Source: a virus
Virus record (IMG/VR): IMGVR_UViG_3300005436_000038
Location: 1-23,816 of that record
Direction: 5' to 3' (one strand)
DNA length: 23,816 bases
The translations under genes were made by a program, and so were the position numbers. A model generated the notes under the pieces. The model did no database searches and was not told the origin of the DNA. It saw nothing but the letters and a program-made list of their open reading frames with translations. Below, in pieces: positions 3,203 through 23,816 of the stretch; the stretch's first letter is position 1, and every line of letters starts with the position of its first letter.

Positions 3203-4225
3203 TCACCAAGCGAACACATACACGCAGCCATCGCCACCGTTGCCACCGTTGCCGCCGGTGCTGGTGCCGCCACCGCCGCCACCGCCACCACCCCCACACA
3301 GGCCACCGGCGCCACCATTGCCGCCGGTTCCGGCATTATTGCCGCCACCGCCACCGCCGCCGAAGCCGCCCGTTGTGGAGTTGCCGTTGGCGCCAGTCGT
3401 GCCGGCGCCGTTGGTGGTGCCGGAACCATTGGTGCCGCCGTTGATGGCGCCAGCAGTGCCACCGCCGGCAGCCGCATAGGTTTGACCAGAACCACCAGCA
3501 CCGCCCACCGTCGCTGTGCCCGGCGTTGCCGCAGAAACACCGCCCCCACCACCGCCGCCGGCTGCGCCAAAAAGCGAGCCACCACCCGCTGAACCAGCCG
3601 CGCCTGTGCTATTGGCGCCGCCGCCAGCGCCACCGCCAAATTCTGCGACCTTTCCATTGGCGCCGGCAGTCGCCCCGGCGCCCTGTCCAGCTATGCCGTT
3701 GGCGCCGGCACCGGATGCCGGAAGGCCGCCAGTGACACTTGCACTGCCGACAGCGCCGACTCCACCCGATCCGCCGCCGCCGCCGCCTGCCAAGTTTTGA
3801 GCAGATACCCCGGCCGCGCCGCCGCCGCCGCCATAAGCAGTAAGATAGCTCCCAAACGTTGAATTGCCGCCGGCTTGTCCGTTGTTGCCGCTTCCACCCG
3901 AACCGCCGCCGCCGTTCGCTGTGCCGCCCGCGCCGACCGTGACCGTGACGGAGGAACCCGAAATATCAGAGCAGCGAAACATCAATGAAGCCATAACACC
4001 GCCGCCGCCACCAGTTGCGCCATTACGTTCTGCGCCAGCCGCAACCCCATGCCCGCCGCCGCCTTGGCCGCCGGCCCCGTAGGCAATCACGTAGACCGTG
4101 TTGCACGGCGTCGGCTTGGACCAACTCGGCGTGGCACCGCCAGTGGTGTAGGAGTTGGCGGTCTGCGCGTGCGCGCTGCCGAGCAGGCCGAGCAGGATCG
4201 CGGTCGAGGCGAGCCAGCGGCGCAT
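3203..4225 (-). CDS. Secreted-type glycine-rich phage appendage protein, copy 3
   Basis: A 340-residue protein, last of three tandem paralogues. A Sec signal peptide is visible: MRRW, then a hydrophobic core ILLGLLG, with a probable cut after AHA at about residue 20. The mature part starts TANSYTTGG and has a SWSKPTPC motif (Cys41) and FRCSDIS (Cys85), then about 220 residues of Gly/Ala/Asn-rich low complexity. It ends with poly-Gly and GDGCVYVFAW. Four cysteines (about 41, 85, 310, 334) are conserved in position among the copies. The body resembles the glycine-rich domains of phage tail-fibre tips, where SW.KP leads into a polyglycine II-like bundle. Start chosen at the ATG (TGATG overlap with the copy before it) rather than the two GTG codons upstream, because it matches the paralogue start MRRW. 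Confidence 0.8.
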   Translation of the reverse strand: MRRWLASTAILLGLLGSAHAQTANSYTTGGATPSWSKPTPCNTVYVIAYGAGGQGGGGHGVAAGAERNGATGGGGGVMASLMFRCSDISGSSVTVTVGAGGTANGGGGSGGSGNNGQAGGNSTFGSYLTAYGGGGGAAGVSAQNLAGGGGGGSGGVGAVGSASVTGGLPASGAGANGIAGQGAGATAGANGKVAEFGGGAGGGANSTGAAGSAGGGSLFGAAGGGGGGGVSAATPGTATVGGAGGSGQTYAAAGGGTAGAINGGTNGSGTTNGAGTTGANGNSTTGGFGGGGGGGNNAGTGGNGGAGGLCGGGGGGGGGGTSTGGNGGNGGDGCVYVFAW

Positions 4226-5211
4226 CACCACGCGATCACGAACACGCAGCCGGCGCCACCAGCGCCGCCGGTGCCGGCCGCATTGGTCGTGCCACCCGCA
4301 GCACCACCGCCGCCGCCACCGCCGCCACAGGGTCCGCCCACACCACCGGTGCTGCTTTGGCCGCCAGTGTTGGCGCCGCCGCCACCACCACCCTGGCCGC
4401 CAAATGATCCACCCGTCGCTGTGCCTAAGCCAGCGTTGCCGTTCGTGCTACCGCCGGCAGCGCCGCCGCCAGTGCTATACGCCCCGATGCCACCCCCTGT
4501 GCCGCCCGCTGTTGGCGTTCCACCGCCGTTTGAGGCGCCACCAGAACCACCGCCGCCGCTGCCCCAAAGGGCGGAACCTCCATTCGTTGACCCGGCACCG
4601 CCGAGCAGCGTTGGACCGCCGCTGGCGCCGCCATATTCTGCGCTCTTAGCGGCTGCTGTGGTGCCGCCAGCGCCCTGCCCAGCAAGGCCAGAGACGCCCA
4701 CCGTGGCGGCAGGCAAGCCGCCTATATTTGACGAGGTGGCTCCCACGCTCCCGACGCCGCCTGAACCGCCGCCACCGCCGCCTGACAGAGTGCCACCGGA
4801 CGTGCCGGGACCGCCGCCCCCGCCGCCATAGGCCAGCAGATAGGTGCCGAAGCTCGATGTGCCGCCGGGGTTGCCCGCGTTGCCGTTGGTGTTGGTCCCG
4901 CCGCCACCCGCACCGCTTCCGCCAGCGGCCACCGTGACGGTGACCGGGTCGGAGAGGTCCGAGCAGCGGAACCAATGCCGAGCAGTTGCGCCGCCGCCAC
5001 CGCCGGCTCCACCGGAACTACCGAACGCTGTGGCCCGACCTTGACCGCCGCCGCCCTGGCCTCCGCTTCCATAGACGATGACGTAGACGGACGTGCAGGG
5101 GGACGGCTTGCTCCAAGACGGTGTCGTGCCGCCGGTGGTGTAGGAATTATAGGTCTGCGCCTGCGCCGCGAACGGCAGGCCGAGCAGCAGAGCGAGCAGC
5201 GCCGCGCGCAT
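4225..5211 (-). CDS. Secreted-type glycine-rich phage appendage protein, copy 2
   Basis: A 328-residue paralogue of its two neighbours. The signal peptide is MRAALLALLLGLPFAAQAQ, with a probable cut after AQA near residue 18. The mature chain starts TYNSYTTGGTTPSWSKPSPC and then YVIVYGSGGQGGGG, followed by a WFRCSDLSDPVTVTV strand segment and long Gly-rich tracts. It ends PCGGGG... and GAGCVFVIAW. The opening Cys, the RCSD Cys, the CGGG Cys and the GC(V)(F/Y)V Cys all align with the other copies. It is joined to copies 1 and 3 by 1-nt TGATG overlaps, so the three are made from one message, probably by reinitiation. The role is inferred to be a virion surface or adhesion protein. The signal peptide is unusual for a protein thought to be assembled in the cytoplasm. 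Confidence 0.8.
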   Translation of the reverse strand: MRAALLALLLGLPFAAQAQTYNSYTTGGTTPSWSKPSPCTSVYVIVYGSGGQGGGGQGRATAFGSSGGAGGGGGATARHWFRCSDLSDPVTVTVAAGGSGAGGGGTNTNGNAGNPGGTSSFGTYLLAYGGGGGGPGTSGGTLSGGGGGGSGGVGSVGATSSNIGGLPAATVGVSGLAGQGAGGTTAAAKSAEYGGASGGPTLLGGAGSTNGGSALWGSGGGGSGGASNGGGTPTAGGTGGGIGAYSTGGGAAGGSTNGNAGLGTATGGSFGGQGGGGGGANTGGQSSTGGVGGPCGGGGGGGGAAGGTTNAAGTGGAGGAGCVFVIAW

Positions 5212-6251
5212 CAGAACGCCACCACAAAGACGCAGCCGTCGCCGCCCTTACCACCACCGCCACCGGTCGAGGTTCCGCCGCCGCCACCACCACCGCCGCC
5301 GCCACACAGGCCGCCGGCCCCACCAGCTCCGCCGGTGCCGGCATTATTGGCGCCACCGCCACCGCCGCCGAAGCCGCCCGAGACAAAGGTGCCGGGCGTG
5401 CCAGCCGTGCCGGCACCCGCCGTGGTGCCTGATCCATTGGTCCCGCCTTCGACCGCGCCGGCCGTGCCGCCGCCGCCAGCCACATAGGACTGGCCGGCGC
5501 CCCCGGCCCCGCCGGTTGAGGACGTGCCGGGCGTGGCCGCTGTCGTGCCCCCACCAGCCCCGCCCCCAGCCCCGCCATAAACGGAGCTACCACCCGCGCC
5601 ACCTTGTGCTGCCGAAGCCAGACCACCGCCGCCACCAGCGCCGCCGAACTCGGCATTGCCCCCGCCCGCCGCGTTGGTGCCGCCAGCGCCTTGTCCGGTA
5701 ATGCCAGCAGCACCGGCTGCTGACGCCGGCAAGCCGCCAGCAATGTTGGTTGTGCTGCCAAGCGGGCCGCCGCCGCCCGAGCCGCCGCCACCGCCGCCGC
5801 TATTGTTGGCCCCAGCACCTTGTTTGCCGCCGCCGCCGAAATAGCCGGTCAGGTAGCTGCCGAAGGATGAACTGGTGCCACTATTGCCTACCGTGCCGGC
5901 AGCCACCGCAGCACCCCCGGTGCCCACCGTAACGGTGAGCGGCGCAGTGATGTCGGCACACGAGAAGAACCGTTCGAGCCGTATCCCGCCACCGCCGCCA
6001 GAGGCACCACTGCGCAGGCTGCCAGCCGCCGCGCCTTGCCCGCCGGCCCCGCTACCACCGGCGCCATAAACAATAACCCCGACAATGGTGCACGGCGTCG
6101 GCTTGCTCCATGAGGCCGTGCCGGCGGAGGTATAGCTGTTGACCTGCGTGGGGATGCCTGCCGAGGCGCCGAACAGGGACGAGACGAACTGCGCCTGCGC
6201 CGGCCCAGCCAGCGCCAGAGCGGCTACGGCCGCGGCGATCCAGCGGCGCAT
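5211..6251 (-). CDS. Secreted-type glycine-rich phage appendage protein, copy 1
   Basis: A 346-residue protein, first of three tandem copies. The signal peptide is MRRWIAAAVAALALAGPAQAQ with a probable cut near residue 20. It has a short insert (FVSSLFGASAGIPTQ) not present in the others, then VNSYTSAGTASWSKPTPC, GVIVYGAGGSGAGGQG and FFSCADITAPLTVTVGTGG. Long Gly/Ala tracts follow, and the end is LCGGGG... plus GDGCVFVVAF. The same four conserved cysteines are present. It overlaps the upstream 194-residue gene by 1 nt (TAATG). The paralogues share ends and cysteine pattern but differ inside, as expected for old tandem duplication with fast drift of the Gly-rich body. Function is not known; a receptor-binding or shielding role is inference. 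Confidence 0.8.
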   Translation of the reverse strand: MRRWIAAAVAALALAGPAQAQFVSSLFGASAGIPTQVNSYTSAGTASWSKPTPCTIVGVIVYGAGGSGAGGQGAAAGSLRSGASGGGGGIRLERFFSCADITAPLTVTVGTGGAAVAAGTVGNSGTSSSFGSYLTGYFGGGGKQGAGANNSGGGGGGSGGGGPLGSTTNIAGGLPASAAGAAGITGQGAGGTNAAGGGNAEFGGAGGGGGLASAAQGGAGGSSVYGGAGGGAGGGTTAATPGTSSTGGAGGAGQSYVAGGGGTAGAVEGGTNGSGTTAGAGTAGTPGTFVSGGFGGGGGGANNAGTGGAGGAGGLCGGGGGGGGGGTSTGGGGGKGGDGCVFVVAF

Positions 6252-6835
6252 TAGTGGGCGAACGCTTTCTGCAGGGTCAGTTCGATATGCGTGCTGTCGC
6301 GCACGTAATAGGACAGCACGTCCACCGCACTCACCCCGGTCGACAGCACCAGCGCGGCGGTGCCGCCCGGCGCCTCATACTGGCTGCCCCAGGTGCCGAT
6401 GGTGTCCGAACCGGTCGCCGATTGGATAACCATGATCTGCCCGCCGGTGCCAGCTACCGGCGTCGCTGACGGGTTCGCCAGCGTGCACGGGCAGGACGCG
6501 TGCACCAGGGTGATGCTGTAGTTATTGCTCGACCCATCCGGCGTGAAGGTCGCGGTCGAGATCGCCAGCGTGGTCGGCGTGACCGATTGCTGTGCGGACC
6601 AGACATTCGTGCCGTTGAGCAGCGGGATGGTGCCACCGCTGGTCCCGGTCGCCGTGCTGCAGCCCGTCGCACCGTTCGAGAGGTTCGCGCACGCCGCCTG
6701 GGAGAACGCCCCGGTGGTCGGCGCATAGGACAGCGCCCCTGTCACACCGTTAATCGCCGGATACTCGACGGGCCCACTCGGCGCCGCCAGGGCAGCCGTG
6801 ACGAACAGAGCCCGGAACCAGGAGAACAGGCTCAT
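6251..6835 (-). CDS. Phage tail appendage protein with probable signal peptide
   Basis: A 194-residue protein starting MSLFSWFRALFVTAALAAPSG; the first about 18 residues look like a signal peptide. The middle has a VTGALSYAPTTGAF segment typical of phage fibre linkers. The C-terminal half (TFTPDGSSNNYSITLVHASC to LSYYVRDSTHIELTLQKAFAH) resembles a beta-sandwich end domain often found in phage fibre proteins (DVLSYYV motif). Cysteines occur as ACANLSNGATGC and SCPC. The ATG at 6833-6835 gives the classic ATGA overlap with the fibre gene upstream; a longer frame with an earlier start (MVCHMS) is less likely. It probably adds to the same appendage as the fibre gene before it and the glycine-rich genes after it; this is inference. 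Confidence 0.72.
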   Translation of the reverse strand: MSLFSWFRALFVTAALAAPSGPVEYPAINGVTGALSYAPTTGAFSQAACANLSNGATGCSTATGTSGGTIPLLNGTNVWSAQQSVTPTTLAISTATFTPDGSSNNYSITLVHASCPCTLANPSATPVAGTGGQIMVIQSATGSDTIGTWGSQYEAPGGTAALVLSTGVSAVDVLSYYVRDSTHIELTLQKAFAH

Positions 6836-8340
6836 GTGACATACCATTGCGAGGTGGAGTCAGCGGTGAACAGCGCCACGCCACCAGCGACGATGGTCAC
6901 CGCCGCGTTCGCTGCCAGCGCCTCGATGGTGCCGCTCGTTGCCGGATAGATCAGCAGGCTGTTGGCGCCCCGATTGAGCACCCGCTGCGTCCTGCCGGCC
7001 GGCGGTGAGGCAATCAGCCTCCCCCCGGCCGCCGACCCCACAGTGGTAAACACGTTGATGTCGGACGTGATGGTCAGTGCGCCTGCCTGGGCGGTCCCCG
7101 CCGCGGTGAGCGTGCCGGCGTAGGAGGGCAGTGCCACCAGGGTGGCGGAGCCGAGCGACAGCCCGTTGCCGATGGTGGTCAGGGTGCCGGCCTGATAGTT
7201 CGCCGAGATCGAGCCGGTGGTGGTGATCGTGCCACCGTTCAGTCCGGTGCCAGCGATCACCGAGGTGACGGAGCCACCCGAGCCGGTCGCCGACAGCGTG
7301 CCGTTGGTCGCCAGCGAGAGACCGGAGCCAACGGTCACTGCGGCCGGGATTGCCGCTGCGGTGCCAGCGTTGCCGAACAGTGAGGTGGCAGCGATCGTTG
7401 CGATGGCCAGAGTGTTCGAGGTCAGTGCGAGGCTGGCGCCCAAGGTCGAGACGGTGCCGGCGTTCCAGTCAGCCAGGAGCGTGCCAGCGCCGGTGATCGT
7501 GCCGGCATGCAGGCCGGCGCCGGAGACGACGGAGGTGACCGACCCGCCGGACCCTGTGCTGCTCAGTGTGCCATTGGTGGCGAGCGTGAGACCGGAACCG
7601 ATCGTCACCGCCGAGGGCACAGCTGTTGCGGTAGTGGCGTTGCCGAGCAGTGAGGTCGCCGCCTGGGTGGCGAGCGAGACGGTGCCCGTCGAGGTGATCG
7701 TGCCGCCGGCCAGACCGGAGCCGGCAATGACGGAGGTCACCCCATCGGCCGCTGACGTGAGAGTGCCCGAGGTCAGCGTAAGGCCCGTGCCCAGGGCCGC
7801 CACCGAGCCGCCGTTCCAGTTGGCGTTGATGGTGCCGGCGCTGGTGATGGTGCCACCGGTGAGGCCGGTGCCAGCCACCACCGAGGTTACCCCCGTGGTG
7901 CCGGTGGCACTCAGGGTGCCGTTGGTGGCGAGCGACAGGCCTGAGCCAATGGTGACCGCGGAGGGCACCGCGGCAGCCGTTCCGGCATTGCCGAACAGCT
8001 TGGTCGCCGCAATGGTGCCGAGCGAGATCGTGCCAGCGCCGGTGATCGTGCCGCCGGCAAGGCCGGAGCCGGCGATCACCGAAGTAACCCCATCAGCTGC
8101 CGAGCTCAGCGTTCCCGAGGTCACCGTCAGGCCGGTGCCCAGCGCGGTGATGGCGGTGGTCTGCCAATTGGGTGAGATCGTGCCGCTGTTGATGGCGATA
8201 CCGGTGCCGAGCACCACCGCAGTGAAGGTCGTGCCGGCGGTGCCGATCAGTGACGCGTCGGAGGGCGGCACCTGCCCAGCCTCGGCTATCGCCGTGTTGA
8301 GCGCGGCAGCGGTGAGGGTGTCGCCTGCGACGAACGTCAT
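6832..8340 (-). CDS. Repeat-containing phage tail fibre protein
   Basis: The 502-residue protein opens MTFVAGDTLTAAALNTAI, a common start of phage fibre proteins. Residues about 85-380 are built from internal repeats. A TSV..G.GL..GTIT unit occurs five times (near residues 85, 151, 201, 268, 358). A longer unit with GNA.TA.A(V/I)P.AVT and GSGL(S/T)LATNGTLS occurs three times (near 113, 229, 319). Such Gly/Thr/Ser-rich repeats suggest a fibrous beta-structured shaft. The last about 90 residues (QRVLNRGANSLLIYPATSG to FTADSTSQWYVT) form a compact beta domain seen at fibre ends. No chaperone or peptidase tail is visible. It overlaps both neighbours by ATGA, so it is translationally coupled. It probably forms a host-binding fibre. 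Confidence 0.82.
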   Translation of the reverse strand: MTFVAGDTLTAAALNTAIAEAGQVPPSDASLIGTAGTTFTAVVLGTGIAINSGTISPNWQTTAITALGTGLTVTSGTLSSAADGVTSVIAGSGLAGGTITGAGTISLGTIAATKLFGNAGTAAAVPSAVTIGSGLSLATNGTLSATGTTGVTSVVAGTGLTGGTITSAGTINANWNGGSVAALGTGLTLTSGTLTSAADGVTSVIAGSGLAGGTITSTGTVSLATQAATSLLGNATTATAVPSAVTIGSGLTLATNGTLSSTGSGGSVTSVVSGAGLHAGTITGAGTLLADWNAGTVSTLGASLALTSNTLAIATIAATSLFGNAGTAAAIPAAVTVGSGLSLATNGTLSATGSGGSVTSVIAGTGLNGGTITTTGSISANYQAGTLTTIGNGLSLGSATLVALPSYAGTLTAAGTAQAGALTITSDINVFTTVGSAAGGRLIASPPAGRTQRVLNRGANSLLIYPATSGTIEALAANAAVTIVAGGVALFTADSTSQWYVT

Positions 8341-8891: not shown

Positions 8892-9464
8892 TCATTTGTA
8901 GAAGAAGTTGATGGCGTAGGCGTTGGCAGCCGGCGCGGTCGCGTCGTTATCGGCAAAGCCGGTGGTCACGCACACGGTGATCGCGGTCGAGAACGCCATG
9001 CCGTAGACGTTCATGGAGACATAATTGCCACCAGCCGCGGCCGCCGGGATCATACCCTGATAGACCGGCGTGCCGGCGCCACAGGTCACCGAACCCTGCG
9101 CCGTGTTGTAGAGTTTGATGTAGGCGATGGTCGCCGAATTGTTGAACGCCTCGATGCCATAGAGCTGGCCAGCGGAGGCTTTGATCGCCACCGAGGTGGT
9201 GTCGTTCGCCACCTGCTTGCGCAGCACCGACAGGCCGCCAGAGGTAAACGGCTGCGGCAACACCTGGGCTTGCTTGCTGGCGTTGACACCGATCGTGTTA
9301 CCCGAGGTGATCGCGTCTTGAACGATGACGTTCGAGAGGGTCGCGCCGACGCCGGTGCACGTCGGGCACTGAACAATCTGCTGGCCGGTGGTTGTGTCAT
9401 AAAGCTGGGCACGCGCATCGAAAGACAGCGCCAGCAGAGCAGCGAGGAGAAGGAAACGCCGCAT
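8892..9464 (-). CDS. Putative exported phage structural protein, 190 aa
   Basis: The start used is the ATG at 9462-9464, which overlaps the upstream stop as TGATG; a longer upstream frame reads only Arg-rich shadow sequence. The protein begins MRRFLLLAALLALSFDARAQ, a clear Sec signal peptide with a likely cut near residue 19. The mature part has CPTC near its start, then a beta-rich domain (ASAGQLYGIEAFNNSATIAYIKLYN) with further cysteines in VTCGAG and ITVCVTT. It resembles small phage proteins that describe a scalar field of beta strands, but I do not recognise a named family. It belongs to the run of appendage-type genes with signal peptides in this window. Role unknown, probably a virion surface component. 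Confidence 0.75.
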   Translation of the reverse strand: MRRFLLLAALLALSFDARAQLYDTTTGQQIVQCPTCTGVGATLSNVIVQDAITSGNTIGVNASKQAQVLPQPFTSGGLSVLRKQVANDTTSVAIKASAGQLYGIEAFNNSATIAYIKLYNTAQGSVTCGAGTPVYQGMIPAAAAGGNYVSMNVYGMAFSTAITVCVTTGFADNDATAPAANAYAINFFYK

Positions 9465-9895
9465 CAGATACCCTTCACCAGCGAGAGCACGATCGAATAG
9501 CTGGAGGCGAGGGCGGCACCGATCGTGGTGAACAAGATCTTCCCGGTCGCCCCTGCGGTGTTCGGATTGATGAGCCCCTGAAAGCCTGCGCGCGAGTCGA
9601 GGAAGGCAAACGGACCAGCGCCAGCGCCGGAAGCGATCCAGATATCGACCGCCACGCTCGCGTCCCACTGTATCCGCACCGCCATCGCCCGGATGTCGTA
9701 GGTCAGGTCGACGATTTTCATGTGCACGCCGGGATAGATCGTCTGCCCCTGCTGAACGACACCGAGCGGTCCGCTGCTCGATCCATCGACCTTGACGACG
9801 CCGCTCTCCCCCGTGCCATCGGACACGTTGGTGAACTTGTAGACAACGCGCCTGGGCCCGTTCTCTAGCAGCTGGCTTGTTACGACATCGGCCAA
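9464..9895 (-). CDS. Conserved-type phage minor structural protein (MADVVTSQ type), TTG start
   Basis: A 143-residue beta-rich protein. The start codon is TTG at 9893-9895, with GGGAG about 9 nt upstream. The N-terminus MADVVTSQLLENGPR with YKFTNVSDGTGES matches a phage protein type that I remember as frequent next to capsid genes, which supports the TTG. The middle has VHMKIVDLTYDIRAMAVRIQWDA, a strand pattern expected in a small jelly roll. It ends in ILFTTIGAALASSYSIVLSLVKG. It could be a capsid decoration or tail component. It is separated by 15 nt from the upstream gene and overlaps the exported 190-residue gene by 1 nt. Confidence 0.8.
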   Translation of the reverse strand: MADVVTSQLLENGPRRVVYKFTNVSDGTGESGVVKVDGSSSGPLGVVQQGQTIYPGVHMKIVDLTYDIRAMAVRIQWDASVAVDIWIASGAGAGPFAFLDSRAGFQGLINPNTAGATGKILFTTIGAALASSYSIVLSLVKGI

Positions 9896-13945: not shown

Positions 13946-14341
13946 TTATTCAGGCGGCAAAGCGACCGCTCCGACACAGCGCTGCGACACCAGTCGATAG
14001 GTCATCCCATCGACGCCCTGCAACACCTGACCGGCGTATCTCTCGATGTAGACACGGTCTCCCGGCTCCGGCCGCTGGCCCGACCACATGCGCCGCGCGT
14101 CATCGTCCCAGATGAACGCTGCCGGACCGAGCGCCACCACGACACCGGTCTCGCCGGCAAGGCTTTGTCGATCGGCGGCAACGTCGGGGATATGGACGCC
14201 GCCCGAGGTGATCGAAGCATGCTCGTCCATGCGCACCATCACCTTGTCATCGAGCGGCTGGTAGCCCGAACGGTTCACGCCGTCCCAGGGCGCGGTGACG
14301 AACTCGCGCTGATCGCCCGTTATCAGTCGGCCTTCCTTCAC
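13946..14341 (-). CDS. GroES-like co-chaperonin (phage-encoded Cpn10)
   Basis: A 131-residue protein. GroES/Cpn10 features are visible in order: YQPLDDKVMVRMDEHASITSG near residues 27-47 (family: P..DRV.V), then GVHIPDVAADRQSLAGETGVVVALGP (mobile loop region followed by the G.V.A.G strand), GDRVYIERYAGQ (family GD.V.F..Y.G), and a last strand YRLVSQRCVGAV. GroES is about 97 residues; here there are N-terminal (about 25) and mid-domain (FIWDDDARRMWSGQ) extensions. Phage relatives such as T4 gp31 replace host GroES to fold the capsid protein in GroEL. I chose the GTG at 14341, which overlaps the upstream stop as GTGA; an earlier ATG adds only Arg-rich shadow sequence. The mobile loop is not the classic IVL form. 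Confidence 0.82.
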   Translation of the reverse strand: MKEGRLITGDQREFVTAPWDGVNRSGYQPLDDKVMVRMDEHASITSGGVHIPDVAADRQSLAGETGVVVALGPAAFIWDDDARRMWSGQRPEPGDRVYIERYAGQVLQGVDGMTYRLVSQRCVGAVALPPE

Positions 14342-14688
14342 GCAGTCGTCTCCTCTGCCTCTGGCATCAGTTCGTAGAAGATCAACAAGTGCTCGAATTG
14401 CAGCGCTACGAGTTCGTTGCACATCAATACGCGCCCCCGCGCCTCGTTCTCCTGCAGGGTGGTGAGCTCACCGCCCTCGAACGCCTCGAGCGCGCCGCGG
14501 CGCAGGCTGTCGCGGTAGTCATCCAGGAACCGCAGCACCACCCGCGTTACCGGGTGGTGTCGCCAAGCCTGGAACTCCGGCTCCCGCAAGTCCCTGAGCG
14601 ATGCTTGCCGCAGCTGGAGAATTTCGGGCGGCGGTGGCTGGAGAATTTTCCACAGGTTCGGACTCGGAGGTGGTGTTGAGGAGGTCAA
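14338..14688 (-). CDS. Small phage protein overlapping the portal 3' end, 116 aa
   Basis: A 116-residue protein whose first 170 nt lie inside the end of the portal gene in another frame. The N-terminus is Pro-rich (MTSSTPPPSPN). The rest is helical: LRDLREPEFQAWRHHPVTRVV, then FLDDYRDSLRRGALEAF, then NELVALQFEHLLIFYELMPE. Small proteins with a HPVTRVVL..LDDYRD-like helix next to the portal are common in such phages, with no known role. From about 14640 downward the G/C third-position preference is in this frame and not in the portal frame. It ends in a GTGA overlap with the GroES-like gene. Confidence 0.7.
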   Translation of the reverse strand: MTSSTPPPSPNLWKILQPPPPEILQLRQASLRDLREPEFQAWRHHPVTRVVLRFLDDYRDSLRRGALEAFEGGELTTLQENEARGRVLMCNELVALQFEHLLIFYELMPEAEETTA

Positions 14689-17044
14689 TCTGGTGCCTCA
14701 GGTTCTGCAGCTGCAGCGCATACCAATTCTGGTCGGCCTCGTGATCGGCCTTGCGCGCGTTGGCCAGATTGAGGATTGAGCGCGACAGCATCTCGATCTC
14801 GGTCGCCTTGTCCTTGCCGCGGCGGATGTCGAGATCGGCCTCCTCGCGCGCTGCACGGATCTGCAGCTCCTGGCCTTTGAGTTCGGCCAGATGCTTCTGC
14901 ACATCGACCGCCTGCTTCTCGAGGTCGAGCTGCGCCAGCTGCGCGGCGATGGCAGCGTTCGGCGGCGCCTGGGCTGCGATCAGCTTGTCGACCTGCTGGA
15001 TCGCCGCGGCCTGCATCGCGCGCAGGCGGATCTCGCGGCCATCGAAGAACGGGTCGTTGGAGAATTGCAGCAGGAAGTTCGCCTGGGCCATCTGCTGCGT
15101 GTCGGTGACCATGTCAGGGTCACTGACCGGCTCAGCCCCACCACCACGTTCGTAGTCCTCGCGGGTGACCGCGAAATACTCCGAGCCGATGCGGAAGCCG
15201 GTCTCGTCGGCAAGATACAGCCGGTTGAGCCGGAACAGCAGCTCGTAGTCCTTGCGCAGCGATCTGTGGATACGTTTGAAGATGCTGTTGAACACCTTCA
15301 GGCCTTGCTGGATCACCGCGAGGCCGAGGATGCCGGGAACGTTCGCACCGGGGATCTCACCGGTCAGAACGTCTTTAATCGAGCCGATATCCTTCGCGCT
15401 CTCGATCAGGAACTGCATCAGCTGCAGCAGCACCGGGTTGGGGCCCGGCATGGGGATCGGCACGAGGTTCTCGCGCAGCGCCTTCCCCGAGGTGTTGACC
15501 ACCTTATACTCGCCGGTGGTGAAGCGCACCGCACCGGTGTTGATGCTCATCCCGCCACCGATGAAGCCACCCCCGGCAATCTGCAGGTGGCCGGCATCGA
15601 ACATCTGATTGATCGTGGTGTTGACCGCGGCGTTCAGCGGATAGAGCAGGTGGCCGAAACCAATGTCGTAGCAGCCGCCATCGGGGTTCGGGATGAAGCC
15701 GTATTTGGTGTAGTAGCGCACCGGCTCGATGTGCTGCACCTCGCCGTCATGCGTCGCCTCGACGCTCTCGCTGTCGAACCCGACCATGATGCGTGCCAGC
15801 CGCCCGGTGTCGCGGGAGAACGTCACGATCAGTGGCTCGTCGTAGCCATCGCCGTCCAGGTCGTAGCGCCGATGCTGCTCGCAGAACGTCACCGGCGCCT
15901 GCTCGTCCTGGCTGACATCGTGGTTGGTGCCATAGTCGTCGTCGAGCCACAGACCGCTGCGGATGTTGCTCTCGATCTCCCACGGATAGACGTCGATCTC
16001 CTCGGTCTTGCGCGGGGCGGCGTCGAAGTTCTTCGCCTTGTAGTTCACACACAATCTCATCGCGTCGACCGTCTCGGAGACGTTTCGCAGCGCGGATGGG
16101 TCGAAATAGGTTTTGCGGAACATAGTGCCGACGATGGAGACCACGAGCAGCAGGCGATCAGTTTGCTCCTCCCACTCCGGCATCTCGGTGAGTAACTGCC
16201 AGCTCATGTGCCGGCCGATCTTGTCGGCCCTCGCTTGCTTGGCACCTGGGGCGACCAGCCATTGCGGCTTGCCATCGGGACCGACCGCTGGCTGCATCGG
16301 GCCCTGAGGTGAACCTCCAGGGCCACCGCTCGGAGGCAGTTGGGGCGTCGCCGGGAGCGGCCCTGGAGGCGCCGCGGCGGCACCGCCGCCAGGAGGGCCC
16401 GCGGCCGCCTGTGCCTGACCCGGGCCCATAGGTGCAGAGCCAACCCCAGGAGGGCCCACAGGGGCACCCGGAGGCGGTTGCGCCGGCTGCATCGCCGCGA
16501 CCCCGCGATCATCGCCCACCACGGTGCCCTTGACCACATTGCGGCCCTGCACGATCGCGGGATAGGCGCGCGCGTTGAATTGCAGCGCGGCGACGGTGAT
16601 CATCGGGAAGATGACGTTCGAGGCGTTCGGCCAGGGGTAGCTCTTCGGCTTGACCATCTGCAGCGCGAAGTCGAGCCAGTCGCGGTATTTGGTTTTCCAG
16701 TCGGCCCGGCTCTCATCGTCGATGACGAACTCGCGCTTGGCCTGATCGGCGATCTTCTGGCGCTCGGTGTCCTCGAGATCCTCGGCGAGATTCTTGACGC
16801 TCATCCACTTGGCGAAGCGCCGGGCGATCTCGGGCTTGAGCAGCGGCTTGTTCTGCTCGCCCTCGTTGGCGACGACCTGAGGTTCCATGCTCGGTCGGTT
16901 CGACCGCGGCCGGAACGGCATCAACGCATTGGCGGCGCGCGACTGCGGCCGGGGTGGGTCCGAGCTGTCGTCGTCGGGATCCGGCAGGTTGTCCTGATCC
17001 GGGTCCTGGGCAGGCATAGCCAGGGCTGCGAGCGCGCCACTCAT
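14519..17044 (-). CDS. Portal protein, P22-like
   Basis: An 841-residue protein of the P22 portal type, the 12-fold ring through which DNA enters and leaves. Diagnostic parts include MVKPKSYPWPNASNVIFPM and VAALQFNARAYPAIV (about 131-165), IGRHMSWQLLTEMPEWEEQT, IVGTMFRKTYFDPSALRN, VYPWEIESNI, and the stem/crown parts DIGSIKDVLTGEIPG, then LGLAVIQQGLKVFNSIFKRI. A long coiled coil with AREEADLDIRRGKDKATEIE follows near 745-780. It is longer than P22 gp1 (725). About 75 residues of Pro/Gly/Ala/Gln (about 188-265) are inserted between VVGDDRG and KADK-type sequence. The last about 45 residues are Ala/Gly/Pro-rich and overprint the next gene. The start ATG has an AGAGGA SD. The N-terminus MSGAL resembles that of two other virion-type proteins here. 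Confidence 0.88.
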   Translation of the reverse strand: MSGALAALAMPAQDPDQDNLPDPDDDSSDPPRPQSRAANALMPFRPRSNRPSMEPQVVANEGEQNKPLLKPEIARRFAKWMSVKNLAEDLEDTERQKIADQAKREFVIDDESRADWKTKYRDWLDFALQMVKPKSYPWPNASNVIFPMITVAALQFNARAYPAIVQGRNVVKGTVVGDDRGVAAMQPAQPPPGAPVGPPGVGSAPMGPGQAQAAAGPPGGGAAAAPPGPLPATPQLPPSGGPGGSPQGPMQPAVGPDGKPQWLVAPGAKQARADKIGRHMSWQLLTEMPEWEEQTDRLLLVVSIVGTMFRKTYFDPSALRNVSETVDAMRLCVNYKAKNFDAAPRKTEEIDVYPWEIESNIRSGLWLDDDYGTNHDVSQDEQAPVTFCEQHRRYDLDGDGYDEPLIVTFSRDTGRLARIMVGFDSESVEATHDGEVQHIEPVRYYTKYGFIPNPDGGCYDIGFGHLLYPLNAAVNTTINQMFDAGHLQIAGGGFIGGGMSINTGAVRFTTGEYKVVNTSGKALRENLVPIPMPGPNPVLLQLMQFLIESAKDIGSIKDVLTGEIPGANVPGILGLAVIQQGLKVFNSIFKRIHRSLRKDYELLFRLNRLYLADETGFRIGSEYFAVTREDYERGGGAEPVSDPDMVTDTQQMAQANFLLQFSNDPFFDGREIRLRAMQAAAIQQVDKLIAAQAPPNAAIAAQLAQLDLEKQAVDVQKHLAELKGQELQIRAAREEADLDIRRGKDKATEIEMLSRSILNLANARKADHEADQNWYALQLQNLRHQIDLLNTTSESEPVENSPATAARNSPAAASIAQGLAGAGVPGLATPPGNAGGAAVPG

Positions 17045-17154
17045 AGAGCGATCCTCTCAGTCACCGGCCATCCATAGGCTAGCACGATTGCGACGGTGCC
17101 AGGGTCGCGGTTTCCGCTTGCCATCGGCCCGGCTGCCGTCCCAGGCTCGGTGTC

Positions 17155-17175
17155 GCCCGGTGTCAGACGCCGGGC
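17155..17175 (+). promoter_or_regulatory. Small hairpin just upstream of the plus-strand peptide gene RBS
   Basis: The inverted repeat GCCCGG (17155-17160) and CCGGGC (17170-17175) with a 9-nt loop ends about 7 nt before the AGGAGA ribosome binding site of the peptide gene. It could control translation or end leftward transcription noise. No convincing -35/-10 pair was seen in 17045-17193. Confidence 0.3.
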
Positions 17176-17193
17176 AAACACAGGAGAAACGCC

Positions 17194-17343
17194 ATGAGTG
17201 ATGACACGTTGCGCGAACTCACCGAGGCCGAACTGGATCAAGTGACCGGCGGCAGCTTTGGCGGGCCGCAGGGTGGTGGTCCGGGCAACTCGGGACCGGG
17301 CGACAAGCACAGCCCGGTCGAGGGGCCGCCCAAGGCACCGTAA
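17194..17343 (+). CDS. Bacteriocin-type peptide precursor with double-glycine leader
   Basis: A 49-residue peptide on the plus strand, opposite to all other genes. The N-terminal 20 residues MSDDTLRELTEAELDQVTGG form a classic double-glycine leader: charged start, hydrophobic L/L/L/V spacing in LRELTEAELDQV, then GG. Such leaders direct export and cutting by C39-peptidase ABC transporters, as in class II microcins and related RiPP precursors. The predicted mature part is 29 residues, rich in Gly and Pro (SFGGPQGGGPGNSGPGDKH, then PVEGPPKAP), with no Cys, Ser only in three places and no Thr. The RBS AGGAGA sits 7 nt before the ATG. A GC hairpin follows 9 nt after the stop. No transporter, modifying enzyme or immunity gene is visible nearby, so host machinery would be needed. 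Likely a cargo ('moron') gene; target unknown. Confidence 0.8.
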   Translation: MSDDTLRELTEAELDQVTGGSFGGPQGGGPGNSGPGDKHSPVEGPPKAP

Positions 17344-17352
17344 ACGCTCAGA

Positions 17353-17378
17353 GCGGGGGCTGGTCACGCGGCCCCCGC
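17353..17378 (+). terminator. Terminator-like hairpin after the peptide gene
   Basis: An 8-bp perfect stem GCGGGGGC (17353-17360) and GCCCCCGC (17371-17378) with a 10-nt loop starts 9 nt after the TAA. No T run follows (GCAAGGGTGCC), so it is a weak or non-classic terminator. Its placement suggests that the peptide gene is its own transcription unit. Confidence 0.45.
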
Positions 17379-17632
17379 GCAAGGGTGCCGTCTCTCCGGC
17401 TGTCACCGCGAGCCGTCTACCGGATGTGCGGTTAATCCTGATGAACTGACGGCTAGCCGGGGCGGCTCCTGCCGGGATTGCGTCCCCGTTCCGTGCGGTT
17501 TGTGTCCTTCCCAGACCGTGCCCGGCACCGAATATCCCAAAGCGACGAGGCGACCGGCTCACGGCAGACCGATCTCGCCGGCCGCACCCGTCCCCCAGCT
17601 GGCACTCCCGGAAGTTAGAGCGGCAGCAGAGC
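17379..17632. other. Intergenic stretch without a supported gene
   Basis: About 250 bp between the peptide gene hairpin and the small Cys-protein gene. On the plus strand the frame of the peptide gene stays open after its stop up to 17697 and reads a cysteine-dense segment (CRDCVPVPCGLC around 17470-17505), but it has no ATG or GTG start and no ribosome site. On the minus strand a 25-codon frame starts by ATGA overlap at 17636 and ends at 17559. Neither is convincing. No promoter could be assigned. Confidence 0.4.
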
Positions 17633-17887
17633 TCATTGCTTCACCGGCTCCCACTCGCCGCACCATTGGTCCGGGTGGACCAGCGGGAACGAGCTGAACG
17701 GCCGCGGCATTGCCCCCATGCGGGGCGGCGGCGCCTGGACCATCAGCACGGTCGCCTGCGGCACCCGGCGGCGACACTCGAGGTCGGGGTCCGGCGGCGG
17801 CAGCTTGTGCATGAATCGGCAATTGTTACACGCCTGCGCGTGCATCTTGGCCACGATATCTCGTGGCACGATCAACCCGCCAGACAT
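17633..17887 (-). CDS. Small Cys-containing phage protein, possible metal-binding
   Basis: An 84-residue protein. Four cysteines are arranged as CNNC (20, 23), ECRRR (38) and WCGEW (76). This C-x2-C ... CRR.P ... WCGEW pattern is typical of a small phage/bacterial protein type with a probable zinc or iron-sulfur site. The middle is Pro-rich (VQAPPPRMGAMPRPFSSFPL). Proteins of this sort occur near terminase or portal genes in several phages (from memory); role unknown. The ATG has a GGGG-rich SD (GGCGGGGTTCTGC). It follows the terminase stop by 12 nt, so it is probably co-transcribed with it. It is the last gene before the gap with the plus-strand peptide gene. Confidence 0.8.
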   Translation of the reverse strand: MSGGLIVPRDIVAKMHAQACNNCRFMHKLPPPDPDLECRRRVPQATVLMVQAPPPRMGAMPRPFSSFPLVHPDQWCGEWEPVKQ

Positions 17888-17899
17888 GCAGAACCCCGC

Positions 17900-19408
17900 C
17901 TAATAACCCGTGATGTATGATCTCGTGGGGTCAGTGACCAACCTCGAGTTGCGTTCGACAACGTCACTATCTGACGTAAGTCCCTGAGATTGCAAGCTCG
18001 AGCCGAATATGCGGGTTGCAACGTATCCCATCGCCTCAACCGGATGGGACACTTCGTTCTTCTCTGGCTTCTCGGCGAACCGTTCCACCCCGGCCAACTG
18101 GATGCGCCGGAAGTGGTAGCCGCCCATCATCCCCTTGCGGGTCTGCGAGCACCGCGGGTGGATGTTGAACGCCGGCAGGCCATCGTCGTCCATCTGGCGC
18201 AGCGGCTTGCGCACGCTCTCGAAGCGGATGGTCGGGGTCTGCATGCCGCCTTCGATCAGGATGCCCTTGGCGTGCAGGATGTCGAAGCAGGTCCGTTCGT
18301 CGGTCTCCGAGCGCGCCTCGCCGGCCGGGTCGCCGATGTCGATGAACTCGCTGTCCGGGTAATACTGCGCCGAGTGGGCCAGCACCTGATCGGAGAACCG
18401 ATCGATCCCCATCGAGGTCGACACCAGCTCGTCGACCACCTTCCATTGTCCCCTGGCGGAGATCTGGCTGAACACGCAGGCCGGGGTCAGACCGAAGTCC
18501 CAGCCGCGGTAGATCGGCAGCCGGGGGTCGGTGCGCGGCGCCCTGGCCGGCTCGGTGGCGCCCGGGCAGTGGATGCTGTCGTGATACTCCGGGAACACCG
18601 GGCGACCGTCGACCACGAAGCCGTATTGCCCCTCGACGTAGACCTTCTTCCACTCCGGCGATTTGCCGATGGCGAGGCGGTGCCAGTAGCCTGGGCTCTG
18701 GTTGGTGGTGTTCTCGGCGTTCGGCGATAAGCCTGACGGCTGCTTGAAGATCCGCGCGTAGTTATCCAGCGTCAGGCCCGGGATATACTGCGCCAGCTGG
18801 GTCACCGCGTCGGTGTGGTCCTCCTCCTCGAAGAACTTGAACCACTTCGAATCGCTGTCGGGCGGGTTGGTGTCCAGGATGACCCCGGCCCAGGTGGCGC
18901 CGCCATCGCGCTTCGGCGGGTAGCGGTCGACGCGACCCTGCAGCGCCTCGACGATCGCCCAGGGGATCTCGCGCGCCTCATTGCACCAGCCGCCGGTGAG
19001 GTCGAGGGAAAGCAGGTTGCGCACATGGTCCGGTCGGTCCAAGGCGCGGAACAGCAGCTCGATCTGGGCCGGGACCTTGTCCCCGGGAGAGATCAGCATG
19101 TTGAGCGTATATTCGTGCTCGGTGGCACGCCAGCGGCCACAGCCCGGCGGCGGGAACCACTGGTGCACGGTCTTGATCGCGGTGTCGTTGAGCTGGCGGT
19201 AGGTGTTGCGGATCACCGCCCAGCGGGTGCGTCGGACCCCGTCAGGCCCAGGCTTCTGGCGTAGCCCGCGATTGACGATATCCCACAGACAGGCGGAGCT
19301 CTTGCCCGAGCCGAACGGACCCATCAGACCCCGGATGAACGCGTCGCTGGCGAGAAATGCCCGCAGCGTCGGCGCATCCTCGGTCTCATACATCAGGGTC
19401 TGCGGCAA
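17900..19408 (-). CDS. terL: Terminase large subunit (ATPase and nuclease)
   Basis: A 502-residue packaging motor. The Walker A motif is GPFGSGKSS (30-38). The Walker B/catalytic acid region is LTGGWCNEARE (137-147), with motif III-like GVILDTNPP (175-183). The C-terminal RNase H-like nuclease shows RGWDFG (Asp304), VVDELVS (Glu327) and DIGDPAG (Asp358/Asp360), and closes with HPVEAMGYV (455-463). Length and order are normal. It cuts concatemeric DNA and drives it through the portal. The start is uncertain: a TTG at 19406-19408 gives MPQTLMYETED, while an in-frame ATG five codons later gives MYETED; neither has a good SD. The upstream gene ends 3 nt before the TTG, which favours coupled translation. 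No recognisable small terminase subunit was found nearby. Confidence 0.9.
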   Translation of the reverse strand: MPQTLMYETEDAPTLRAFLASDAFIRGLMGPFGSGKSSACLWDIVNRGLRQKPGPDGVRRTRWAVIRNTYRQLNDTAIKTVHQWFPPPGCGRWRATEHEYTLNMLISPGDKVPAQIELLFRALDRPDHVRNLLSLDLTGGWCNEAREIPWAIVEALQGRVDRYPPKRDGGATWAGVILDTNPPDSDSKWFKFFEEEDHTDAVTQLAQYIPGLTLDNYARIFKQPSGLSPNAENTTNQSPGYWHRLAIGKSPEWKKVYVEGQYGFVVDGRPVFPEYHDSIHCPGATEPARAPRTDPRLPIYRGWDFGLTPACVFSQISARGQWKVVDELVSTSMGIDRFSDQVLAHSAQYYPDSEFIDIGDPAGEARSETDERTCFDILHAKGILIEGGMQTPTIRFESVRKPLRQMDDDGLPAFNIHPRCSQTRKGMMGGYHFRRIQLAGVERFAEKPEKNEVSHPVEAMGYVATRIFGSSLQSQGLTSDSDVVERNSRLVTDPTRSYITGY

Positions 19409-23267: not shown

Positions 23268-23594
23268 TCACAGGCCCAGCTTCGCGCGCGTGGGATCGTC
23301 GGCCAGTCCCGTCACCTCAAGGTCATGCTCGCTTTGATAGCGACGCAGCGCCGCCCCCGTCGCGGTGCCCATTTTGCCGTCGATCGGACCCGCATAGTCG
23401 CCGGCCTCATGCAGCCGTTGCTGCACATCGGCGAGGTCGCCGACGCTATGCGAGGACTGCGCGATACCGGATGGCGGCGCGGCAGCCGGCGGCGGCGGCG
23501 CGGTGTGCGGCGAGGTCTGCGCAGACGGCCCGCTCATCCAAGAGCAGCCGGCGAGCAGCAACACGGCGGAGACCAGATAGAAACAGGCTTTCAT
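23268..23594 (-). CDS. Peptidoglycan-binding lipoprotein
   Basis: A 108-residue lipoprotein. The start is the ATG at 23592-23594, which has an ideal AGGAGG SD 6 nt upstream; the longer frame above is shadow. The signal peptide is MKACFYLVSAVLLLAGC with the lipobox LAGC at residues 14-17, so Cys17 should be lipidated. Ser at +2 suggests outer membrane sorting. A Pro/Ala-rich linker (about 20-48) leads to a peptidoglycan_binding-1 type domain (about 50-108): VGDLADVQQRLHEAG, then YAGPIDGKMGTATGAALRRY and LEVTGLADDPTRAKLGL. The domain has no catalytic part. A wall-anchored phage lipoprotein could serve in lysis, DNA-entry exclusion or envelope tethering. Host-like lipoproteins carried by a prophage are also possible. 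Confidence 0.82.
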   Translation of the reverse strand: MKACFYLVSAVLLLAGCSWMSGPSAQTSPHTAPPPPAAAPPSGIAQSSHSVGDLADVQQRLHEAGDYAGPIDGKMGTATGAALRRYQSEHDLEVTGLADDPTRAKLGL

Positions 23595-23605
23595 GGCAGA
23601 CCTCC

Positions 23606-23816
23606 TCACCGCAATCGCGGCAACGACGGACCCAGACAGACGATGAGCTGGAAGATGAACAGGATCGCCCCGATAGCGATGACGACCCACAGCACGATCC
23701 ACAAGGCGGCGACGAAGAAGTCGAGGATCTCAGCGCCAGGACTACCGAGACGCGGCCGAATAAACCGCAGCAGCAGCTGCAACAGCGCCACCGCTCCGCA
23801 AATAATCACCAGCCAG
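23606..23816 (-). CDS. Small membrane protein, 5' end open at window edge
   Basis: A frame of at least 67 residues. A GTG at 23807-23809 could be its start ((M)IICGAVALLQLLLRFIRP), but the frame is open to the window edge, so the true start may be outside. It has a hydrophobic segment near the start and a long one (about 31-60: FFVAALWIVLWVVIAIGA, then FIFQLIVCL), which suggests two or more membrane passes with a short basic loop (RFIRPRLGSPG). It ends only 12 nt before the lipoprotein ATG, so both may act at the envelope. Family not recognised. Confidence 0.6.
   Translation of the reverse strand, partial: WLVIICGAVALLQLLLRFIRPRLGSPGAEILDFFVAALWIVLWVVIAIGAILFIFQLIVCLGPSLPRLR

Follow-up and report, generated by a model that had tools for sequence, protein, structure and literature searches.

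A double-glycine peptide gene among phage packaging genes, a candidate substrate of host C39 exporters

Introduction

Why would a phage carry, among its packaging genes and on the opposite strand, a short gene for a peptide with a double-glycine leader? Double-glycine peptides are standard bacterial pheromones and bacteriocins. Herein, we describe such a gene in a window of 23,816 bases, which is a whole viral record and probably a genome fragment. A preliminary description had read the gene as phage cargo, an exported peptide without its own exporter that could be made by lysogens. The leader, the cargo and the homologues of that reading stood up to analysis, while its lysogen part found no support.

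Results

A 49-codon gene with its own signals

The peptide ORF lies on the + strand (17194..17343), with an ATG at 17194, a TAA at 17341-17343 and 49 codons. It encodes a 49-residue double-glycine precursor, composed of the leader MSDDTLRELTEAELDQVTGG (17194..17253, +) and then the core SFGGPQGGGPGNSGPGDKHSPVEGPPKAP (17254..17340, +). Cleavage by a C39 peptidase is predicted after the GG, which would leave the 29-residue core as the mature peptide. The Shine-Dalgarno sequence AGGAGA (17182..17187, +) is followed 6 nt downstream by the ATG. Directly before it, the arms GCCCGGTGT/ACGCCGGGC plus GTGT/ACAC fold into a two-tier GC hairpin (17150..17181, +) that the preliminary description had not noted, and the GAG of the Shine-Dalgarno sequence could also pair with an upstream CTC. 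A second GC hairpin, with 10 bp and no T-tract, lies 3' of the stop (17353..17378, +). The 56-nt stretch after the stop folds at -29.6 kcal/mol (z -3.3), and none of 200 shuffles was equally stable. The terminator scan did not call this hairpin, which is a possible transcript end. The ORF, its AGGAGA and the hairpin after the stop were thus found as the preliminary description had them.

The DNA pattern of the leader has a single match in the window, and none of 100 dinucleotide-shuffled sequences contains it. A promoter scan found no sigma-70-like promoter for the window gene, and an Rfam search of the window, L004 and L005 returned no RNA family. An overlapping 173-aa GTG ORF (17041-17562, -) was rejected as a true gene by its GC content at codon positions 2/3, which is 0.65/0.68 vs 0.45/0.82 in the portal gene. 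The ORF at 17194-17343, with homologues in three other contigs and a synonymous bias (both described below), is very probably real and a gene.

By published structures, the substrates of C39-peptidase exporters carry L(-12)xxxE(-8)L(-7)xxxxG(-2)G(-1), and residue -4 likely sets specificity (PMC6959990, PMC6363468). The window leader fits L(-12)xxxE(-8)L(-7)xxV(-4)xGG fully. As the C39/PCAT leader pattern we used L(-12)xxxE(-8)L(-7)xx[V/I/M](-4)x followed by GG, GA or GS; LTEAELDQVTGG has all of these residues, and the positions are identical in all four copies. The NCBIfam model TIGR01847, with a cut-off of 15.7 bits, scored 16.1 in the window, 15.8 in L088 and 16.2 in L089, while the L090 leader fell under the cut-off with 14.4 bits. 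The window gene therefore does encode a leader of the double-glycine export type, as had been proposed. More specific bacteriocin and pheromone models align to the window leader only and far below cut-off; the best of these are the pheromone VP1 and BlpC models, also far below their own cut-offs. Pfam ComC (PF03047) gave the window peptide 15.3 bits vs a cut-off of 20.4. A PHROG search with the peptide had no match, nor did a search with the precursor of 50,697 phage and 72,556 plasmid records.

A conserved leader in four viral contigs

A near-identical leader was found in three further IMG/VR contigs, L088, L089 and L090, which brings the known carriers of the phage leader to only four, out of millions of viral contigs. 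The preliminary description had staked its reading on homologues with a conserved leader, and these exist. In L088 (33.8 kb contig) the precursor consists of the leader MSDDTLRELTDAELDQVSGG and the core AMSTETPSGNPTNGHGEGLVVVNPAGNQPPGQQ; in L089 (12.4 kb contig) the leader is MSDDKLRELTDAELDQVSGG and the core is nearly that of L088; in L090 (71 kb contig) the leader is MRVERNSLVELTDAELDQVSGG and the core ANIDQGSGKNPSGNKVGPFEGNPHDQPGANALVTP, with a classical terminator downstream. Each of these three copies has its own Shine-Dalgarno sequence and, just upstream, a GC hairpin equivalent to that of the window. The SD-proximal hairpin folds in 4/4 copies with modest z-scores (-1.4 to -3.7), and a two-tier hairpin masking the Shine-Dalgarno sequence in all four is plausible. 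Pattern matches in L006, L007, L211-L213 and similar records fell within ORFs that are longer or unrelated; these were left out of the count.

Of the 60 leader nucleotides, 17 are not the same in the window and in L088, which amounts to 11 synonymous and 2 conservative nonsynonymous changes across 20 codons. Over the whole gene, L088 and L089 differ at 7 synonymous and 2 nonsynonymous codons; in a neutral simulation, so few amino-acid changes occurred in 0.04% of cases (p 0.0004). The synonymous bias in the leader and in the L088/L089 gene is thus good evidence of a translated and selected gene, and these codon comparisons show the leader to be under purifying selection. For the L088/L089 core alone, where 1 of 33 residues differs, the 4 nt changes gave a p of 0.06, which is not significant.

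The cores share their length (29-35 residues), the absence of Cys and a low fraction of hydrophobic residues (10-23%). All are rich in Gly and Pro, and those of L088 and L090 also in Asn; the window core has 10% hydrophobic residues and 55% Gly+Pro. When cores were aligned, shuffled sequences scored as well in 79% of cases for window/L088, 9% for window/L090 and 14% for L088/L090. A proposed homology between the window and L090 cores (G..K..P.EG.P) was rejected as not significant at that 9%.

The DNA of the window and that of L088 are homologous over the leader and the ~60 nt before it (71% over 113 nt), and the homology ends where the core begins. Apart from this segment, the window and L088/L089 have in common only a gene for a peptidoglycan-binding lipoprotein with the lipobox LLAGC and a PG_binding_1 domain (window 23268-23702, -; L088:11494-11766; L089:7326-7598), which had no match in the phage collection. 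Their portal genes belong to different PHROGs, and the structural genes of L088/L089 are unrelated to those of the window. In both L088 and L089 the peptide gene faces an endolysin gene. The L088 phage also carries a PAPS reductase-like auxiliary gene (L088:3114-3923, -).

An insert between portal and terminase

TerL, portal, capsid and head closure, the recognisable window genes, lie without exception on the - strand, opposite to the peptide gene, and the largest gap between recognised genes is the segment at 17045..17632 (588 nt) that holds it; both had been pointed out previously. On the left lies the portal gene (14519..17044, -; phrog_1216, E 4.5e-10), whose residues 262-797 are 75% identical to those of L118. 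On the right lies orf84 (17633..17887, -), a small ORF conserved at this place between the TerL and portal genes, which is 45% identical in L118 and also present in L122 and L134. It is followed by the terminase large subunit gene (17900..19408, -; phrog_2, E 5.7e-20), 71% identical to that of L118. The segment contains no second credible ORF, its neighbours being the portal gene and the conserved small ORF.

A single-sequence TerL scan of viral contigs gave no match, while an alignment-based scan gave 80 relatives of the window TerL. In L118, the nearest TerL/portal relative, orf84 and the portal gene are 49 nt apart, vs 588 nt in the window. The leader is absent from all 80 TerL-relative loci and from 22 whole related records. 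Given the short gap in L118 and the leader-free relatives, the peptide gene is most simply an insert in the window lineage, an accessory gene or 'moron', as judged against this one close relative. This agrees with the accessory cargo proposed before.

No immunity gene was recognised beside the window peptide, and no RiPP modification enzyme among the scanned ORFs of the window and the surrounds of the L088 and L090 copies, these contigs being fragments. Nor is there a Pfam integrase in the four carrier records. A lysogenic role is therefore without support, though the records are fragments, and the L090 contig encodes T4-like UvsX, SSB and helicase; the suggestion that the peptide is made by lysogens is not borne out.

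Elsewhere in the window, a gene for a GroES-like co-chaperonin (13946-14422, -; phrog_3188) adjoins the portal gene. The gene order of another contig, L233, resembles that of the window: portal, GroES, scaffold-like and a 200-aa protein. Three tandem Gly-rich paralogues (3203-4231, 4225-5211 and 5211-6251, all -) each start with a Sec-like signal, and one of them matches a tail-fibre-assembly PHROG. Signal-like N-termini, unusual in virion genes, also occur at 6251-6847 and in an ORF within 8892-9668.

Exporters and similar leaders in host genomes

None of the four phage records contains a C39 domain or exporter, and at least one C39 exporter is present in 9 of the 11 Hyphomicrobiales genomes tested, in line with a cargo that travels without its own exporter. 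Among 80 cellular loci with the leader pattern RELx[DE]xEL[DE]xVxGG, 12 had a C39 domain within the fetched stretch (<=8 kb), including loci of Rhizobium and Bradyrhizobium; with 1-6 such genes per 5-10 Mb genome, the chance expectation was estimated at well under one. The strict phage leader pattern is absent from 84,980 species genomes. A profile built from the four phage leaders (E<=0.001) matched in 5 of 300 Bradyrhizobium-family genomes, in none of 385 genomes of the class and in none of 399 of the phylum. The family matches are stand-alone or arrayed peptides with short variable cores, such as MNTTEVRELIAAELDQVSGG and MTRTSDFNGNDLRALNDAELEQVSGG. In one genome of this family (L251), a stretch of 2 kb holds an array of five or more distinct GG-leader peptide genes.

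With leaders and cores of this kind in host genomes, the phage gene appears to belong to a peptide style of the hosts. The window host is likely an alphaproteobacterium of the order Hyphomicrobiales. A host assignment from TerL was dropped: 298 genomes of the Bradyrhizobium order gave 17 matches to the window TerL, with at most 43% identity.

Discussion

A predicted substrate of the host exporter

We favour, with moderate confidence, the reading that the gene is a 'moron' of a tailed phage, probably with a Hyphomicrobiales host, whose double-glycine precursor is a predicted substrate of the host C39 exporter and whose core would act outside the cell. We infer every step after translation. During infection, a C39-peptidase ABC exporter of the host would bind to the helical leader via its residues L-12, L-7 and V-4, cut after Gly-20 and release the 29-residue, hydrophilic, Gly/Pro-rich core. 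With less confidence, the released core may serve as a ligand or signal to neighbouring cells or to phage-infected kin. The hairpin over the Shine-Dalgarno sequence may control translation. The core is soluble and probably disordered, and that it varies while the leader stays fixed is in keeping with a cargo that determines specificity.

The main rival to export is that the peptide is an exporter decoy. If so, the leader is the active part and the core no more than an appendage: during infection the leader would jam or saturate the host C39 exporter and so keep the host's bacteriocins, pheromones or defence peptides from being released. The conservation of the leader across unrelated phages, next to cores that cannot be aligned, would suit such a decoy, as would the lack of a recognised exporter or immunity gene beside the peptide. 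A precedent is paratox, a phage protein that interferes with host peptide signalling (PMC8383118). However, the cleavage site is intact and not blocked, the cores resemble each other in length and composition (with the near-identity of L088 and L089 noted above), and any exported substrate would be expected to conserve its leader. We consider a decoy unlikely.

Would the exported core instead kill or inhibit competitors of the infected cell, or exclude other phages, as a bacteriocin or microcin? The 'bacteriocin' leader model TIGR01847 scores above cut-off, and it is established that class II bacteriocins and microcins use double-glycine leaders (see the review PMC10233263). Yet the window core, Cys-free, with little hydrophobicity and more than half Gly and Pro, is not the amphipathic or hydrophobic membrane-active core of class II, no adjacent immunity gene was recognised in the insert or its neighbours, and infected cells soon lyse, which makes a benefit in competition doubtful. 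A bacteriocin therefore seems improbable. Such a soluble, Gly/Pro-rich peptide, with no immunity gene recognised, looks more like a ligand or signal than a pore-former, and from composition and precedent we regard a signal or ligand as more likely than a pore-forming bacteriocin.

The many such genes in Bradyrhizobium-family hosts also raise the case of a passenger, a host small-protein gene captured without a function for the phage. Against this, the phage leaders and upstream hairpin form a cluster of their own in at least three phage lineages, the synonymous divergence indicates retention under selection, and the tight phage pattern is missing from the species genomes searched; a passenger is quite improbable. 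We rejected as very improbable a chance ORF or assembly artefact, which a short gene on the opposite strand with no promoter called might suggest, because independent homologues keep the Shine-Dalgarno sequence, ATG and leader in place, shuffles do not recreate the pattern and the changes are biased by codon position.

Known systems and wider occurrence

The closest likeness to the export reading is found in the GG peptides of the Bradyrhizobium family, Phyllobacterium and Rhizobium, which have RELxxAELDxVSGG-type leaders, their own Shine-Dalgarno sequences and short variable cores, and are often stand-alone. Unlike the phage genes, these are host-encoded, often in arrays and in some cases beside a C39 exporter, whereas the phage leaders cluster tightly and have a strict pattern of their own. 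ComC/BlpC-type pheromones and class II bacteriocins share the leader with L-12, E-8, L-7, V-4 and GG; the window peptide differs in its core and in having no recognised sensor kinase, exporter or immunity gene nearby. The biofilm peptides of Synechococcus are likewise small secreted GG-motif proteins with a non-antibiotic role (PMC4997328), but are cellular rather than phage-borne. Arbitrium, other phage peptide signals and paratox are alike in being small phage-encoded factors, and the window peptide could also act through peptide signalling. Arbitrium combines Sec export with a phage receptor; no such receptor gene was recognised in the window.

Since the same tag stands on different peptides in three other contigs, phages appear to borrow a host peptide-secretion route. 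If the peptides are exported, phages would use this route to act on cells not yet infected. More speculatively, and we think this rather unlikely, the exporter-less cassette of SD-masking hairpin, fixed leader and hypervariable core in unrelated alphaproteobacterial phages might constitute a peptide-signal channel through the host C39 exporter, for communication or host manipulation and unlike arbitrium. Peptides of the double-glycine type are well known. That they have spread across unrelated phages in a cassette lacking an exporter appears not to have been described in the open-access PMC literature, where we found no account of such a family. One marine RiPP survey discarded viral contigs before analysis (PMC11118758), so that such phage genes would be missed by design.

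Independent examples of phage-borne GG leaders, in L003, L233 and L234, suggest a phenomenon not confined to the window family. L233 encodes a 30-residue GG peptide (L233:531-620, +) with the leader MEQKAPEVEVVELSLDELDLVGGG and a core of ~6 residues (QGMTVL); 0.4 kb downstream of it lie a small conserved gene and one for an endolysin. The GG leader of L234 is near baseplate genes. A GG-leader-like N-terminus is also found on large phage proteins of ~420-640 aa, which start with MP..GEL[ST][DE]xELExVVGG (L218, L219 and L224; 3300012953_000014, 3300030095_006531 and 3300031977_002346). Short phage ORFs in L210, L215, L216, L221 and L223 carry ELxDEEL(E/D)xVxGG and then a similar-looking core (Y..F..YR..IIN..), and possibly represent another phage GG-peptide family.
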